Part shown: piece after piece, positions 36,993 to 48,551 of the stretch | How positions within the stretch are numbered: position 1 is the stretch's first letter | How the letters are laid out: every line of letters begins with the position of its first letter | Source of the DNA: Halanaerobium kushneri | GTDB lineage: Bacteria; Bacillota; Halanaerobiia; Halanaerobiales; Halanaerobiaceae | NCBI RefSeq assembly: GCF_900156285.1 | Contig: NZ_FTNC01000005.1 | Coordinates: 62,001 to 126,000 of the forward strand | Direction of reading: 5' to 3' | DNA: 64,000 nucleotides | Notes under the pieces: model-generated | Database searches by the model: none | The model's input: the letters and a program-made list of their open reading frames with translations, nothing else | What the model was told of the DNA's origin: nothing | Made by a program: the position numbers and the translations under genes

Positions 36993-38090
36993 ATGAAAAA
37001 GGTAAGTATAATTGGAGCTACCGGTTATGTAGGAATTGAGTTGATTCGGCTGCTGCATGATCATCCAGAAGTTGAAATAAAAGATTTAGTTTCCAAAAGC
37101 AGTGCCGGCCAGCTTTTAGTTGATATTTATCCTCAGTTCAGGGGTTCAATATTAAATGATTATCAGCTAAGAGCAATGGAGGATTTTAAGCCAGAGGAAA
37201 GTGATTTGATTTTTACGGCTCTGCCGCATGGAGTTTCTCAGAACATTGTAAGCGAACTTTATGGAAAAGGAACAAAAATTATTGATCTCAGTGGTGATTT
37301 TCGCTATCATGATGTAAAAGTTTATGAAAAATGGTATGGAGTTAAACATAAATCACCTGAACTGGCGAGAGAGGCTGTTTATGGATTAGTTGAGCTGAAC
37401 AGGGAAAAAATAAAAGGAGCAGAGCTTATTGCCAATCCAGGCTGTTATGTGACAGCATCACTTTTAGGGCTTTTACCACTTGTCAGTTTTGAGAAGGCTG
37501 ATCTTAATTCGATTATTATTGATGCCAAGTCTGGAGTGAGTGGAGCCGGCCGCAGTTTAAAAGAGAATCTGCTTTTTACAGAGACTCATAATACAATGAA
37601 AGCCTACAGTCCTGGAGTACACAGACATAGTTCAGAAATAGAATATGTACTAAATCAATTTTTAACAGGAAAATACAAAAAAACTTTTGGTAGTTTAAAA
37701 GATCAGATTGACTTAGAAACTGAGGAAAAGGCAAAAATTTTGTTTACACCTCATTTAATTCCAATTAAGAGAGGAATTTTGGCGACGATTTATCTTGATT
37801 TGGAGGAGCAGAGTTCTGGATCTGAAATTATGGAACTATACCAAAGAGCCTATAATAAAGAAAGATTTGTACAAGTATTAAAAGATTCTTTACCTGAAAT
37901 TAAGAATGTAGCTGGATCAAATTACGCCCAGCTAGCTTTTAGATATAATAAACGTACCAATAGAGTTATTATTATTTCAGCAATTGATAATATGCTTAAG
38001 GGGGCCGCCGGTCAGGCAGTACAAAATATGAACTTGATTTTTAATTTACCCGAAGAGACAGGCCTTGAGGCAACAGCTTTATTCCCCTAA
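36993..38090 (+). CDS. argC: N-acetyl-gamma-glutamyl-phosphate reductase
   Basis: The 365-residue NADPH enzyme performs the third step of arginine synthesis. Motifs: SIIGATGYVGIELIRLL (Rossmann start), FTALPHGVSQ, LIANPGCYVTASLL with the active-site Cys near residue 150, and SGVSGAGRS. The length is slightly above the usual 345. ATG follows GAGGAGTTGAG. It is first in argC-argB-argD (gaps 91 and 89 nt). Confidence 0.95.
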   Translation: MKKVSIIGATGYVGIELIRLLHDHPEVEIKDLVSKSSAGQLLVDIYPQFRGSILNDYQLRAMEDFKPEESDLIFTALPHGVSQNIVSELYGKGTKIIDLSGDFRYHDVKVYEKWYGVKHKSPELAREAVYGLVELNREKIKGAELIANPGCYVTASLLGLLPLVSFEKADLNSIIIDAKSGVSGAGRSLKENLLFTETHNTMKAYSPGVHRHSSEIEYVLNQFLTGKYKKTFGSLKDQIDLETEEKAKILFTPHLIPIKRGILATIYLDLEEQSSGSEIMELYQRAYNKERFVQVLKDSLPEIKNVAGSNYAQLAFRYNKRTNRVIIISAIDNMLKGAAGQAVQNMNLIFNLPEETGLEATALFP

Positions 38091-38181
38091 ATTAGGCAGC
38101 AGAATATTTGTTTATCTATCTAATATGCTAAAATTTAAGTTAGAATTAATTTTTAATTAAAGCAGCAAGGAGGAGAGTACA

Positions 38182-39051
38182 ATAGAAGAATTAATTGAAA
38201 AGGCTAATGTTTTAATTGAAGCTTTACCCTATTTTAAAGATTTTTTTGGCAAGACTTTCGTGATCAAATATGGTGGCAGTATTATGGCAGATCCAAAATT
38301 AAAAGAAAAATTGATTGAAGATATTACTCTGCTTAAATATGTGGGTATTAATCCGGTAATTGTTCACGGAGGAGGACCTGCTATTAATAAGACTCTGGAT
38401 CGTTTAAACATTGAAGCTAATTTTATCGATGGTCTTCGAGTAACTGATAAGGAGACAATGGAGATTGTGGAGATGGTCCTCTCGGCTCAAATTAATAAGG
38501 AGATTGTGGCTCTGATTAATAAAATGCAGGCCAAGGCAGTCGGAGTTTCGGGTAAAGATGGTAATCTGATCAAAGCCAAGAAGAAAGAATTTAGTGACCC
38601 AGAAAAGGATTTAGGTTTTGTCGGTGAAGTTGAGAAAATTAATCCGGAGTTAATTGAAAAGTTGATTGAAGATGGTTATATCCCTGTGATCGCTCCGGTT
38701 GGTGTCAATGATGATGGTGAAGGTTTAAATATCAATGCTGATGCAGTAGCAGGTGAACTTGCAGCTGCTTTAAAGGCTGAAAAATTAATTTATTTAACTG
38801 ATGTAAATGGTATTCGCTTTGAGGCGAAGGATCCGGAGAGTAGGGTCTCACAGCTTACATTTTCAGAGATTAAACAGTGGATTTCTGAGGGGAAAATTCA
38901 GGGAGGTATGCTGCCTAAAGTTGAGGGGTGTATGCAGGCTGTAGAAAGTGGAGTTATCAGGACTCACATTTTAAATGGTCTGGTAGCACATCCACTGCTT
39001 TTAGAAATCTTTACTGACCGGGGAGTTGGGACCATGATTTTAAAGGATTAG
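38182..39051 (+). CDS. argB: Acetylglutamate kinase, probable AUA start codon
   Basis: The 289-residue enzyme phosphorylates N-acetylglutamate. Motifs: FVIKYGGSIMAD, PVIVHGGGPAIN, VGVSGKDGNLI, NINADAVAGELA. The first standard start is GTG 38260, which would delete the conserved N-terminal helix (EELIEKANVLIEALPYFKDF). That helix is encoded in the same frame from 38182; between there and the in-frame TAA at 38158-38160 no ATG, GTG or TTG exists. AUA 38182-38184 lies exactly 8 nt after AAGGAGG. I therefore place the start at AUA. Confidence 0.93.
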   Translation: MEELIEKANVLIEALPYFKDFFGKTFVIKYGGSIMADPKLKEKLIEDITLLKYVGINPVIVHGGGPAINKTLDRLNIEANFIDGLRVTDKETMEIVEMVLSAQINKEIVALINKMQAKAVGVSGKDGNLIKAKKKEFSDPEKDLGFVGEVEKINPELIEKLIEDGYIPVIAPVGVNDDGEGLNINADAVAGELAAALKAEKLIYLTDVNGIRFEAKDPESRVSQLTFSEIKQWISEGKIQGGMLPKVEGCMQAVESGVIRTHILNGLVAHPLLLEIFTDRGVGTMILKD

Positions 39052-39140: not shown

Positions 39141-40337
39141 ATGGAAATAGAAGAAATTATTGAGATGGATGAGAAACATTTTATGAATGTCTACAGTGGT
39201 AGATACCCGCTTTATGTTGAAAAAGCAGAGGGAATAAAATTATACAGCAAGGATGGCAAAGTTTATCGTGACTTTCTGGCAGGAATTGGGGTTAATGCTT
39301 TAGGTTACAGCAATCAGCGTTTTAAGCAGGTTTTAAAAGATCAGATTGATAAAATAATTCACTGTTCTAATCTTTATTATATTGAACCACAGGCCGAGCT
39401 GGAGAAAAGACTCTGTCAGAATTCCTGTTATGATAGGGTTTTCTTTGCTAACAGTGGTTCAGAAGCCAATGAAGGTGCTTTAAAGCTGGCCCGTAAATAT
39501 TTCAAGAAAAAAGGAAGCAATAAGTTTGAGACAATTACCGCAGATAAATCTTTCCATGGAAGAACAATGTCAACTGTAACTGCTACCGGACAGGATAAAT
39601 ATAAAAAACCATTTACCCCACTACCAGAAGGCTTTTCTACAGTTCCCTTTAATGACCTGGCTGCTTTAAAAGCAGCAGTTACAGATCGGACAGCAGCAAT
39701 TATGCTGGAACCAGTTCAGGGTGAAGGTGGAATCTATCCTGCTGTTCAGGAGTATTTAGAAGGAGTACGTAAGCTCTGCGATGAAAAAGATATTCTTCTA
39801 ATTTTTGATGAAGTTCAGTGTGGAATGGGACGAACTGGTGAACTTTTTGCCTATCAAAATTATGGAGTTGAGGCTGATATTATATCGCTGGCTAAGGCGC
39901 TTGGAGGAGGGGTTCCAATTGGAGCTTTTATGGCTAAAGAAAAAGTCGCTTCAGCTTTTGAACCGGGTGATCATGGAACAACCTTTGGTGGAAATCCTCT
40001 GGCAACAAGAGCCGCGGCTGAGGTAATGGATATTATGCTGGAACCTGGGTTCTTGGATTCTGTTAAGGAAAAAGGTGCCTATTTTAGAGGGGAACTGGAT
40101 AAATTAGTTTCTTCAAATAATAATTTAATTGAAACTAGAGGTTTGGGTTTGATGCTGGCTTTAGAAGTCGCTGAAAGCTTATCAGCAAAAGAGATCACCA
40201 GCCAGCTATTTGAGCGTGGTTTTTTAGTTAATGCAGTAAAAGAAACTACTCTGCGCTTTTTACCACCGCTGATTGTAGAGAAAGAAGATATAGACTTACT
40301 GATTAAAAATATTGAAGAAATAATTAAAGCTGAGTAG
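39141..40337 (+). CDS. argD: Acetylornithine aminotransferase
   Basis: The 398-residue PLP enzyme is a class III aminotransferase. Pattern: FLAGIGVNALGYS, FFANSGSEANEGALKLARKY, ESFHGRT-like KSFHGRTMSTVTATGQ, LLIFDEVQCGMGRTGELFAY, and SLAKALGGGVPIGAF with the PLP lysine near residue 253. It converts N-acetylglutamate semialdehyde to N-acetylornithine. ATG lies 11 nt after AAGGGAGAA. It is last in argCBD. argA/argJ and argF are not in the window. Confidence 0.94.
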   Translation: MEIEEIIEMDEKHFMNVYSGRYPLYVEKAEGIKLYSKDGKVYRDFLAGIGVNALGYSNQRFKQVLKDQIDKIIHCSNLYYIEPQAELEKRLCQNSCYDRVFFANSGSEANEGALKLARKYFKKKGSNKFETITADKSFHGRTMSTVTATGQDKYKKPFTPLPEGFSTVPFNDLAALKAAVTDRTAAIMLEPVQGEGGIYPAVQEYLEGVRKLCDEKDILLIFDEVQCGMGRTGELFAYQNYGVEADIISLAKALGGGVPIGAFMAKEKVASAFEPGDHGTTFGGNPLATRAAAEVMDIMLEPGFLDSVKEKGAYFRGELDKLVSSNNNLIETRGLGLMLALEVAESLSAKEITSQLFERGFLVNAVKETTLRFLPPLIVEKEDIDLLIKNIEEIIKAE

Positions 40338-42583: not shown

Positions 42584-43105
42584 ATAAAACTCAAAACAAG
42601 ACAGATCGTGATTGCTGGTATGCTGGGAGCTATTTCTATTATATTAGGTGCTACTGGATTGGGCTTAATTCCCTGGCCAAGCGCAGCCGGACATGCAACG
42701 ATAATGCACCTGCCGGCTATTTTGGGAGGGATTATTGAAGGTCCGATTGTAGGTCTTCTAATTGGTTTGATTTTTGGTATTTTTAGTTTTATTAGGGCGA
42801 CAAATCCGATTTTTGCTGACCCGATTATTGCTATATTACCGCGTTTGTTTATTGGAGTGGCTGCTTATTATGCCTATCAATCAACAAAAAAATTAAACCA
42901 GAGTACTTCTTTAATACTGGCTGGAGCAGTTGGTACTATTGTCAATACAGCCGGTGTTTTAACTCTGGCCGTAATCAGAGGTTATTTACCTTTAAGTGCT
43001 GCTCTGGCTGTTGCTGCTACAAATGGAATACCTGAAATAATTGTAGCTGCAGTATTTTCGTTGATTATCGGCAAAGCTTTGATTAACTTTCAAAAGAATA
43101 ATTAG
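42584..43105 (+). CDS. ECF transporter S-component, probable AUA start codon
   Basis: The 173-residue protein has about six helices. LKTRQIVIAGMLGAISIILG followed by ATGLGLIPWPSAAGHATIMH and PAILGGIIEGPIVGLLIG is the pattern of vitamin-type S-components. Conserved KLKTRQ-type N-termini in this family start directly with Met, but here no ATG, GTG or TTG precedes KLKTRQ before the in-frame TAG at 42542-42544. AUA 42584 lies exactly 8 nt after GGAGG. GTG 42608 is possible but would remove conserved residues and has no ribosome-binding site. The substrate is unknown. A terminator follows closely. Confidence 0.85.
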   Translation: MKLKTRQIVIAGMLGAISIILGATGLGLIPWPSAAGHATIMHLPAILGGIIEGPIVGLLIGLIFGIFSFIRATNPIFADPIIAILPRLFIGVAAYYAYQSTKKLNQSTSLILAGAVGTIVNTAGVLTLAVIRGYLPLSAALAVAATNGIPEIIVAAVFSLIIGKALINFQKNN

Positions 43106-47207: not shown

Positions 47208-48551
47208 ATGTTTGAAGATATTCAGCTGGAAAATTATCTGCAGCTGATAATTGATAAAATACAGAATAATCTTTTGGTCTGGGCAAACTTAATTGAACTA
47301 ATCATTTTTGCTGCAATTACTGTAAGTGCATTTTTCATATCTAAATTTTTATATAGTCATGTTGATGATTTGCTGGGAAAAATTAATGCTTTAAAAGAAC
47401 GCAAAAAAATAAGGATTCTTGATAAATTATTATTTCCTTTAGTTTTAATGATTTTAATTGGTCTTTATTATGTTATTGCGGCAGCCTTTAATTTACCATT
47501 TGTGATTATCAGTATCTTTGGTAATTTAGTTTCTGCCTGGTTAATAGTTAAAGCGATTAGTTTGTTTTTTCCCCGGAATAAAATGTTTCGTTTTTTATCA
47601 TTTTTAATCTGGATAATTGCAGCTTTAAGGATTCTAAATATTTATCAGGAAACTCTAAACTTACTTGACAGTCTTGCTTTTAACAGTGGTAACTTAAGAA
47701 TCTCTCTGCTGCTTATTATTAAAGCCATTATTATTTTTAGTATCTTATTCTGGTTGGCTGGTAAAGTCAGCAGGATTGTTACTTCCAGAATTGACAGCAG
47801 TGATGGTTTAACACCTTCGATTAAAGTGCTTTTGAATAAGATTTCCAAGTTTTTAATTTTCACATCTGCTGTTTTATTTACTCTGAGTGCTGTAGGAATA
47901 GACTTAAGTGCCTTTGCCTTCCTTGGTGGTGCTATTGGTGTTGGTCTTGGTTTTGGACTACAGAAAATAGTTTCCAATTTTATTAGTGGAATAATTATTC
48001 TCGTTGACAAATCAATTAAGCCTGGAGATGTTGTAGAAATAGGAAATGTATATGGATGGGTTAGAAAACTTGATACCCGTTTTGTTTCTGTAGTAACAAG
48101 ATCTGGAAAGGAATACTTAATTCCAAATGAAGATTTTATTACTAAAGAAGTTATAAACTGGTCTTACAGTGATGAGCTGGTCCGGGTTGAGGCAGAGGTT
48201 GGAGTTTCTTATAATAGTGATTTAAGACAGGTTGAAAAACTAATGATGCAAGCTATAGAAGAGAAGGATAGAATTTTAAGTGATCCGGCCCCCAATGTTC
48301 TTTTAATGGGCTTTGGAGATAGTTCGGTGAATTTTGAACTTCGTTTTTGGATCAGTGATCCCCGAAATGGAATTCAGAATATTAGAAGTGAAATTTTAAT
48401 GTCAATCTGGGATAACTTTAAAGAACATGATATTGAAATTCCATTTCCTCAACAGGATTATCATCTGCGGTCACTTCCGGAAGATGTAAATGAATATTTA
48501 AAATCACAATTTAAAGAAAAAAATGCAAATAAGGAGGCTAACTATGAGTAA
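47208..48551 (+). CDS. Mechanosensitive ion channel, MscS family
   Basis: The 447-residue channel has about five or six hydrophobic helices (residues 25-255). The pore helix reads FAFLGGAIGVGLGFGLQKIVS, with the Gly/Ala packing pattern of MscS TM3, followed by the beta domain (IKPGDVVEIGNVYGWVRKLD, YLIPNEDFI) and the alpha/beta cage domain ending FPQQDYHLR. It releases solutes on hypo-osmotic shock, important for a halophile. The DJ-1-like gene begins inside its last 8 nt. Confidence 0.92.
   Translation: MFEDIQLENYLQLIIDKIQNNLLVWANLIELIIFAAITVSAFFISKFLYSHVDDLLGKINALKERKKIRILDKLLFPLVLMILIGLYYVIAAAFNLPFVIISIFGNLVSAWLIVKAISLFFPRNKMFRFLSFLIWIIAALRILNIYQETLNLLDSLAFNSGNLRISLLLIIKAIIIFSILFWLAGKVSRIVTSRIDSSDGLTPSIKVLLNKISKFLIFTSAVLFTLSAVGIDLSAFAFLGGAIGVGLGFGLQKIVSNFISGIIILVDKSIKPGDVVEIGNVYGWVRKLDTRFVSVVTRSGKEYLIPNEDFITKEVINWSYSDELVRVEAEVGVSYNSDLRQVEKLMMQAIEEKDRILSDPAPNVLLMGFGDSSVNFELRFWISDPRNGIQNIRSEILMSIWDNFKEHDIEIPFPQQDYHLRSLPEDVNEYLKSQFKEKNANKEANYE

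Follow-up and report, generated by a model that had tools for sequence, protein, structure and literature searches.

The argB gene of Halanaerobium, which encodes acetylglutamate kinase, is very probably translated from an AUA codon (ATA 38182; Table 1), as judged by comparison of genome sequences. This AUA is probably a genuine, selected and weak start, likely to be IF3-sensitive and helped by a strong Shine-Dalgarno sequence (SD); its lower yield and its dependence on IF3 are what we infer. The gene was studied in a window of 64,000 nucleotides (G000:C18:62001-126000) from a 3.22-Mb Halanaerobium genome, where it belongs to a small plus-strand arg cluster with the order argC, argB, argD. Its ORF scores 279.3 bits against TIGR00761, above the curated cut-off of 151.3 that defines family membership, and it is the sole copy above that cut-off in its own genome. 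In the argB frame the TAA at 38158-38160 is followed by the codons AGC, AGC, AAG, GAG, GAG, AGT, ACA, ATA, GAA and GAA, and no ATG, GTG or TTG occurs in this gene from that TAA up to GTG 38260. The earlier note, which had proposed the AUA start, gave the codons between the TAA and the N-terminal helix correctly except for the two AGC codons, an omission without consequence, and the coordinates confirm its placing of the ATA exactly 8 nt behind AAGGAGG. An 11-codon ORF with an ATG start (38125-38160), in frame with argB, ends in the TAA just 5' of the SD; translation by way of this small ORF was dropped as an explanation because the upstream region varies across congeners.

Table 1. Features of the window discussed in the text, in window positions
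Feature	Position	Strand	Remarks
T-box leader RF00230	3838..4047	+	120 bits
argC	36993..38090	+	ordinary ATG start; TIGR01850 E 3.3e-125
Shine-Dalgarno AAGGAGG of argB	38167..38173	+	8 nt (AGAGTACA) 5' of ATA 38182-38184
argB, acetylglutamate kinase	38182..39051	+	289 codons counted from ATA; TIGR00761 E 2.2e-83; PF00696
Proposed AUA initiation codon of argB	38182..38184	+	ATA in 10/10 Halanaerobium argB; 0/10 other-genus homologues
argB codons 2-26	38185..38259	+	conserved N-terminal helix and beginning of first strand; third-position substitutions; aligned with N-terminal region of 2bty and 2jj4
GTG codon 27 of argB	38260..38262	+	first standard start in the frame; regarded as an internal Val codon; GTG in 6/10
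argD	39141..40337	+	ordinary ATG start; TIGR00707 E 1.2e-147
pan motif RNA RF01749	42482..42575	+	44.6 bits, gathering threshold 36.2; ends in the ECF gene's Shine-Dalgarno
ECF transporter S component	42584..43105	+	173 codons from ATA 42584; PF12822 E 9.3e-27

A search of 38 genomes of the order recovered argB in 10 of the 12 Halanaerobium genomes (our own, G010, G011, G012, G014-G018 and G020), with no match in the remaining two, G013 and G019. Alignment of the site across Halanaerobiales, a check that the earlier note had proposed, places ATA at the homologous start site in every one of the ten Halanaerobium genes, as opposed to none of ten homologues from other genera (L013-L022). The ATA lines up with the start codon of these outgroup genes: in nine of them the aligned start is ATG or GTG or has one of these immediately before it, and in the remaining one (L022) the alignment begins only at query residue 8 and an ATG lies upstream in frame. 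ATA is likewise present in all the named records, namely three strains of H. saccharolyticum, H. congolense, H. polyolivorans, H. salsuginis and one MAG, which for the most part are the same genomes as the ten and were left out of the count. Across 80 argB loci, four have no in-frame ATG, GTG or TTG before the LxEALPY motif, and all four are from Halanaerobium. Alternative standard codons occur in frame in some congeners (an ATG at or next to the SD in G011, a TTG and a GTG in the same situation in G018, a GTG at codon 10 in G016 and a TTG at codon 11 in G020), and none of these is common to all ten genes.

The pattern of substitutions points to the same codon. Summed over the 45 pairs of the ten genes, codons 2-26 differ 111, 51 and 308 times at codon positions 1, 2 and 3, whereas the seven codons upstream of the ATA differ 63, 109 and 71 times; the third-position pattern of the former and its absence from the latter indicate that translation begins at or very near the ATA, in support of the start proposed in the earlier note. 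All three bases of codon 1 are invariant and the SD core GG-N-GG-N-GA is mostly so, while positions upstream of -15 vary freely among the ten congeners. In the same alignment 17 of the 184 columns with an invariant amino acid other than Met or Trp keep a single codon, and among the 26 other invariant Ile columns none is ATA throughout and one has a single codon. The combination of an SD with a suitably spaced ATA proves nothing on its own and was set aside as evidence, since it shows no enrichment in the window (GGAGG-N5-9-ATA, 8 observed against 8.9 expected) or genome-wide (AGGAGG-N5-9-ATA, 174 matches against 244 for a reversed control); what counts is the coding N-terminus together with its conservation.

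A second gene of this kind, for the S component of an ECF transporter preceded by a pan motif RNA, is located 4.4 kb downstream of argB. It is listed from GTG 42608, its first standard codon; ATA 42584 stands 8 nt behind GGGAGG, and the comparison with relatives indicates that the gene really begins there. The start is ATA in all 12 Halanaerobium genomes and in G022, a member of the same family, and ATT in G021, also of that family. In other families, 15 of 16 loci carry ATG, GTG or TTG at the aligned start or 5' of it, and one (L275) is unreadable; two further matches without a locus lie outside these counts. The retention of an ATA that is a single substitution away from ATG, in 10/10 argB and 12/12 ECF genes in which other third positions are turning over, suggests that the ATA has been kept by selection.

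In infC, too, all 12 Halanaerobium genomes (L117-L128) lack a standard codon at the N-terminus and read AGGAGGTGCATAAAT-ATC, with the ATC 9 nt behind AGGAGG; an ATA that is also present, 3 nt behind the SD, was judged too close to it. To these may be added the yield of an orthologue survey for near-cognate starts in two stretches of our own genome (123 and 217 ORFs), in which a script flagged 36 of the 340 ORFs and these were then judged by eye. Four were kept: argB, the ECF gene, and two genes that we call GDPD-like and gspF-like from a reading of their sequence alone. The others were discarded as having ATG, GTG or TTG just behind the SD, as antisense or short ORFs, as cut by the end of the stretch or as truncated copies. 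The GDPD-like gene (C18:9517, L159) reads TTTAAGGAGGTGGA-ATA-ATT and has its first standard start at codon 70, as it does in G014 and G012. The gspF-like gene (C28, minus strand near 48,500; L216-L228 joined) has ATT in our own genome and ATC in G014, behind AGGAGG. An enrichment of near-cognate starts in the genus is only suggested by these 4 of 340 ORFs, a small sample obtained by another method than the figure for Listeria in the available text of PMC13068326, where 2265 conserved genes include 6 with fixed non-canonical starts.

Several further observations were made in passing. A candidate permease-like ORF of 299 codons (C7:40339, L134/L350), seen in our own genome only, has an ATA behind AAAGGAGGTGATCCC and its first standard start at codon 30; the AAAGGAGGTGATCCC stretch had been considered as a 16S rRNA tail and was rejected as such, being the SD of this candidate. 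A 544-codon ORF on the minus strand (G000:C18:157996-159627) lacks about 50 N-terminal residues seen in G017 and G014 and is possibly truncated. A synteny search with contig C12 of our own genome found nothing.

The initiator tRNA identified with ARAGORN reads TCAGG-CTCATAA-CCTGG, in which A29:U41 replaces the first of the three conserved G:C pairs of the anticodon stem. Our own genome has two such A29:U41 copies (L337, L340), and G011 has one together with another that carries G31.U39 in addition (L316, L321). The arm GGGYTCATAACCC, with all three pairs (G29:C41, G30:C40 and G31:C39), is found in none of the four genomes of the genus searched for it (G000, G011, G013 and G014). The pattern TCRGGCTCATAAYCY occurs at 61 places in 30 of the 38 genomes of the order. 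The 31 matches listed, from 30 loci (L351-L380), comprise 27 tRNAs at 26 loci, all 27 with A29:U41, and four that are not tRNAs (L357, L363, L365 and L374). Twenty-four of the tRNAs have AGG/CCU and three AGG/UCU, the latter being one from G011 and two from G021; one TCGGG...CCC place was noted in G008. Relatives of other families possess the same tRNA and yet start argB with ATG or GTG, so that the tRNA is at most permissive and not by itself an explanation of the AUA. Other components of initiation look ordinary. IF3 aligns over nearly its full length with solved IF3, and the 16S rRNA of G011 has an ordinary tail (GGATCACCTCCTTTCT) and TGAAG in what we take to be the 1338 region, with nothing odd in it; an altered IF3 or 16S rRNA was accordingly rejected as the cause of AUA use. 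A changed tRNA that reads AUA at initiation was likewise rejected, there being no tRNA with the anticodon TAT among the 45 found in our own genome (an incomplete list) or the 57 found in G011. According to the available text of PMC7949028, the three G:C pairs of the initiator tRNA are highly conserved in all domains of life.

It is possible that the AUA is translated and yet is merely a tolerated relic of permissive initiation with the A29:U41 tRNA, serving no regulatory use. The order-wide lack of the first G:C pair and the occurrence of near-cognate starts in several unrelated genes of the genus would both fit such a relic, whereas the persistence of ATA in every argB and ECF gene of the genus, one substitution short of ATG, speaks against it. 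On balance, a selected, weak and IF3-sensitive start seems to us roughly twice as probable as a relic. Initiation at a different non-standard codon, either the upstream ACA or AGT or the ATT of codon 5, is very unlikely. These codons are indeed present nearby, but the 8-nt spacing and the invariance are found only for the ATA, and it is the ATA that aligns with the outgroup start. ACA is replaced by AAA in 4/10 congeners and AGT by ATT or AAA in 2/10, and the Ile of codon 5 is a mixture of ATA, ATT and ATC.

At least as unlikely is a start at GTG 38260, which would yield a somewhat E. coli-like ArgB of 263 residues without the N-terminal helix. This GTG is the first standard start in the frame, and the E. 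coli-type kinase 1gs5, presumably the E. coli acetylglutamate kinase itself, aligns only from query residue 26. Against this, the codon is GTC or GTT in 4/10 congeners, has no obvious SD 5' of it, and follows a segment, codons 2-26, that evolves like coding sequence. A start there would truncate the first strand (TFVIKYGG) and remove an N-terminal stretch present in solved kinases: argB aligns with 2bty from query residue 5 and with 2jj4 and 2buf from residue 6, and the upstream helix motif is encoded in all 80 argB loci. The frame and these alignments together confirm the statement of the earlier note that the helix is encoded 5' of the GTG. By sequence, ArgB thus resembles 2bty, 2buf and 2jj4, which we take to be hexameric, arginine-inhibited acetylglutamate kinases, in having the N-terminal helix aligned from query residue 5-6.

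Deamination of the third A in the mRNA, which would turn AUA into AUI, read as AUG, could account for an efficient start and an invariant A but is highly improbable: bacterial TadA edits a UACG loop context, unlike the UAG at this site, and in our own sequence no hairpin at the site is better than in shuffled controls. Although a single substitution separates ATA from ATG, virtually no weight attaches to an assembly or sequencing error or a broken gene, as the identical ATA in 10 separate Halanaerobium assemblies leads us to regard a sequencing error as excluded and the 289-codon frame is intact with a strong third-position bias. The two findings that the earlier note had named as able to overturn it, an A/G error at 38184 and a start at GTG 38260, hence lose their force.

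If argB is translated from AUA 38182 as we propose, the 30S subunit would be placed by a near-complete SD:anti-SD helix, formed by AAGGAGG with its 8-nt spacing, and kept in place by this strong SD until the CAU anticodon of the initiator tRNA accepts the AUA, pairing with its A and U and leaving the third base mismatched. The predicted argB duplex, at -11.2 kcal/mol, is matched or exceeded in 16.7% of 330 sampled genes of our own genome, a strength that is high, in the top sixth, and not extreme; across the ten congeners it ranges from -11.2 to -12.5 kcal/mol. Because it is the CAU anticodon that would read the AUA, ArgB should begin with fMet, and since IF3 discriminates against such pairing, initiation is expected to fall well short of the AUG level, which would leave ArgB synthesis low and dependent on IF3. 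The relaxed initiator tRNA may help to make the AUA usable. Arginine synthesis is generally controlled at the ArgB step, and the purpose of a weak start might be to hold ArgB low and tied to the IF3 level or the growth state. Regulation through the AUA is a guess from precedent, given that Rfam at gathering thresholds identifies only the T-box leader and the pan motif in the whole window, with no conserved regulatory RNA directly in front of argB, and that shuffled sequences fold as stably as the surroundings of the argB start in our own sequence (z 0.05).

In the literature searched, which consisted mostly of papers outside subscription, we found no account of an AUA start in Halanaerobium or of the Halanaerobiales initiator tRNA. 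A reconstruction of 61,358 ancestral AUG starts lists, in the available text, one switch to AUU and none to AUA (PMC5622118), and in view of this near-absence it is unusual for a biosynthetic gene to have an AUA fixed throughout a genus and for another such start to lie 4.4 kb from it. Selection, the finding suggests, can set the dose of an enzyme through the identity of its start codon. There is a practical side as well, in that gene callers confined to ATG, GTG and TTG would clip N-termini of the argB and ECF type.

The E. coli infC gene starts with AUU. Listeria uses ATT for infC and ATC for rnhC, as the available text of PMC13068326 has it. The argB start resembles these AUH starts of E. 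coli and Listeria in being near-cognate, with a third base that mismatches the CAU anticodon. It differs from that of infC in that autoregulation of IF3, for E. coli cited in the accessible part of PMC13009471, loops through the gene's own product, and there is no such loop for argB. The closest parallel is in S. aureus, for which the same text describes AUA starts in infC and ccpN, the AUA of ccpN being conserved to B. subtilis, and reports that AUA and AUU starts with extended SDs give about 10% of the AUG yield, with ccpN reaching up to 30% in rich medium (PMC13009471). The earlier note was right in calling AUA starts very rare, yet they were already documented in S. aureus. As in infC and ccpN, the AUA of argB is kept across species, follows a strong extended SD and belongs to a gene of central regulation or metabolism; the S. 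aureus starts are backed by Ribo-Ret and reporters, that of argB by genome comparison alone, and argB differs in being a biosynthetic enzyme gene in a small arg cluster. Judged by its lack of a standard codon at the N-terminus, its strong SD and its conservation between species, the argB start appears to belong to the infC/ccpN type. Conserved AUA starts being already known, what argB adds is a tRNA background of interest and a record of its evolution that is unusually clear.

With regard to that background, Ayyub et al. reportedly described in 2018 a Mycoplasma initiator tRNA with an AU/GC/GU anticodon stem. The available text of PMC10568206 gives this stem for the initiator tRNA of M. pneumoniae. 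The Halanaerobium initiator tRNAs resemble those of Mycoplasma in having lost G29:C41, and one copy of G011 and the two of G021 share the AU/GC/GU stem; unlike in Mycoplasma, most copies in Halanaerobiales read AU/GC/GC and IF3 is ordinary along its length. The AUA start together with the order-wide A29:U41 tRNA offers a testable case of co-evolution between initiator tRNA, IF3 and start codon outside the mycoplasmas. We tentatively propose, as a conceivable rather than a probable scheme, that initiation has been loosened in Halanaerobium and that argB, the pan-motif ECF gene, infC and a few others make up an IF3-tuned AUA/AUU/AUC regulon, enabled by a tRNA without one 'universal' G:C pair. 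If true, such a regulon would be the free-living counterpart of the mycoplasma case.
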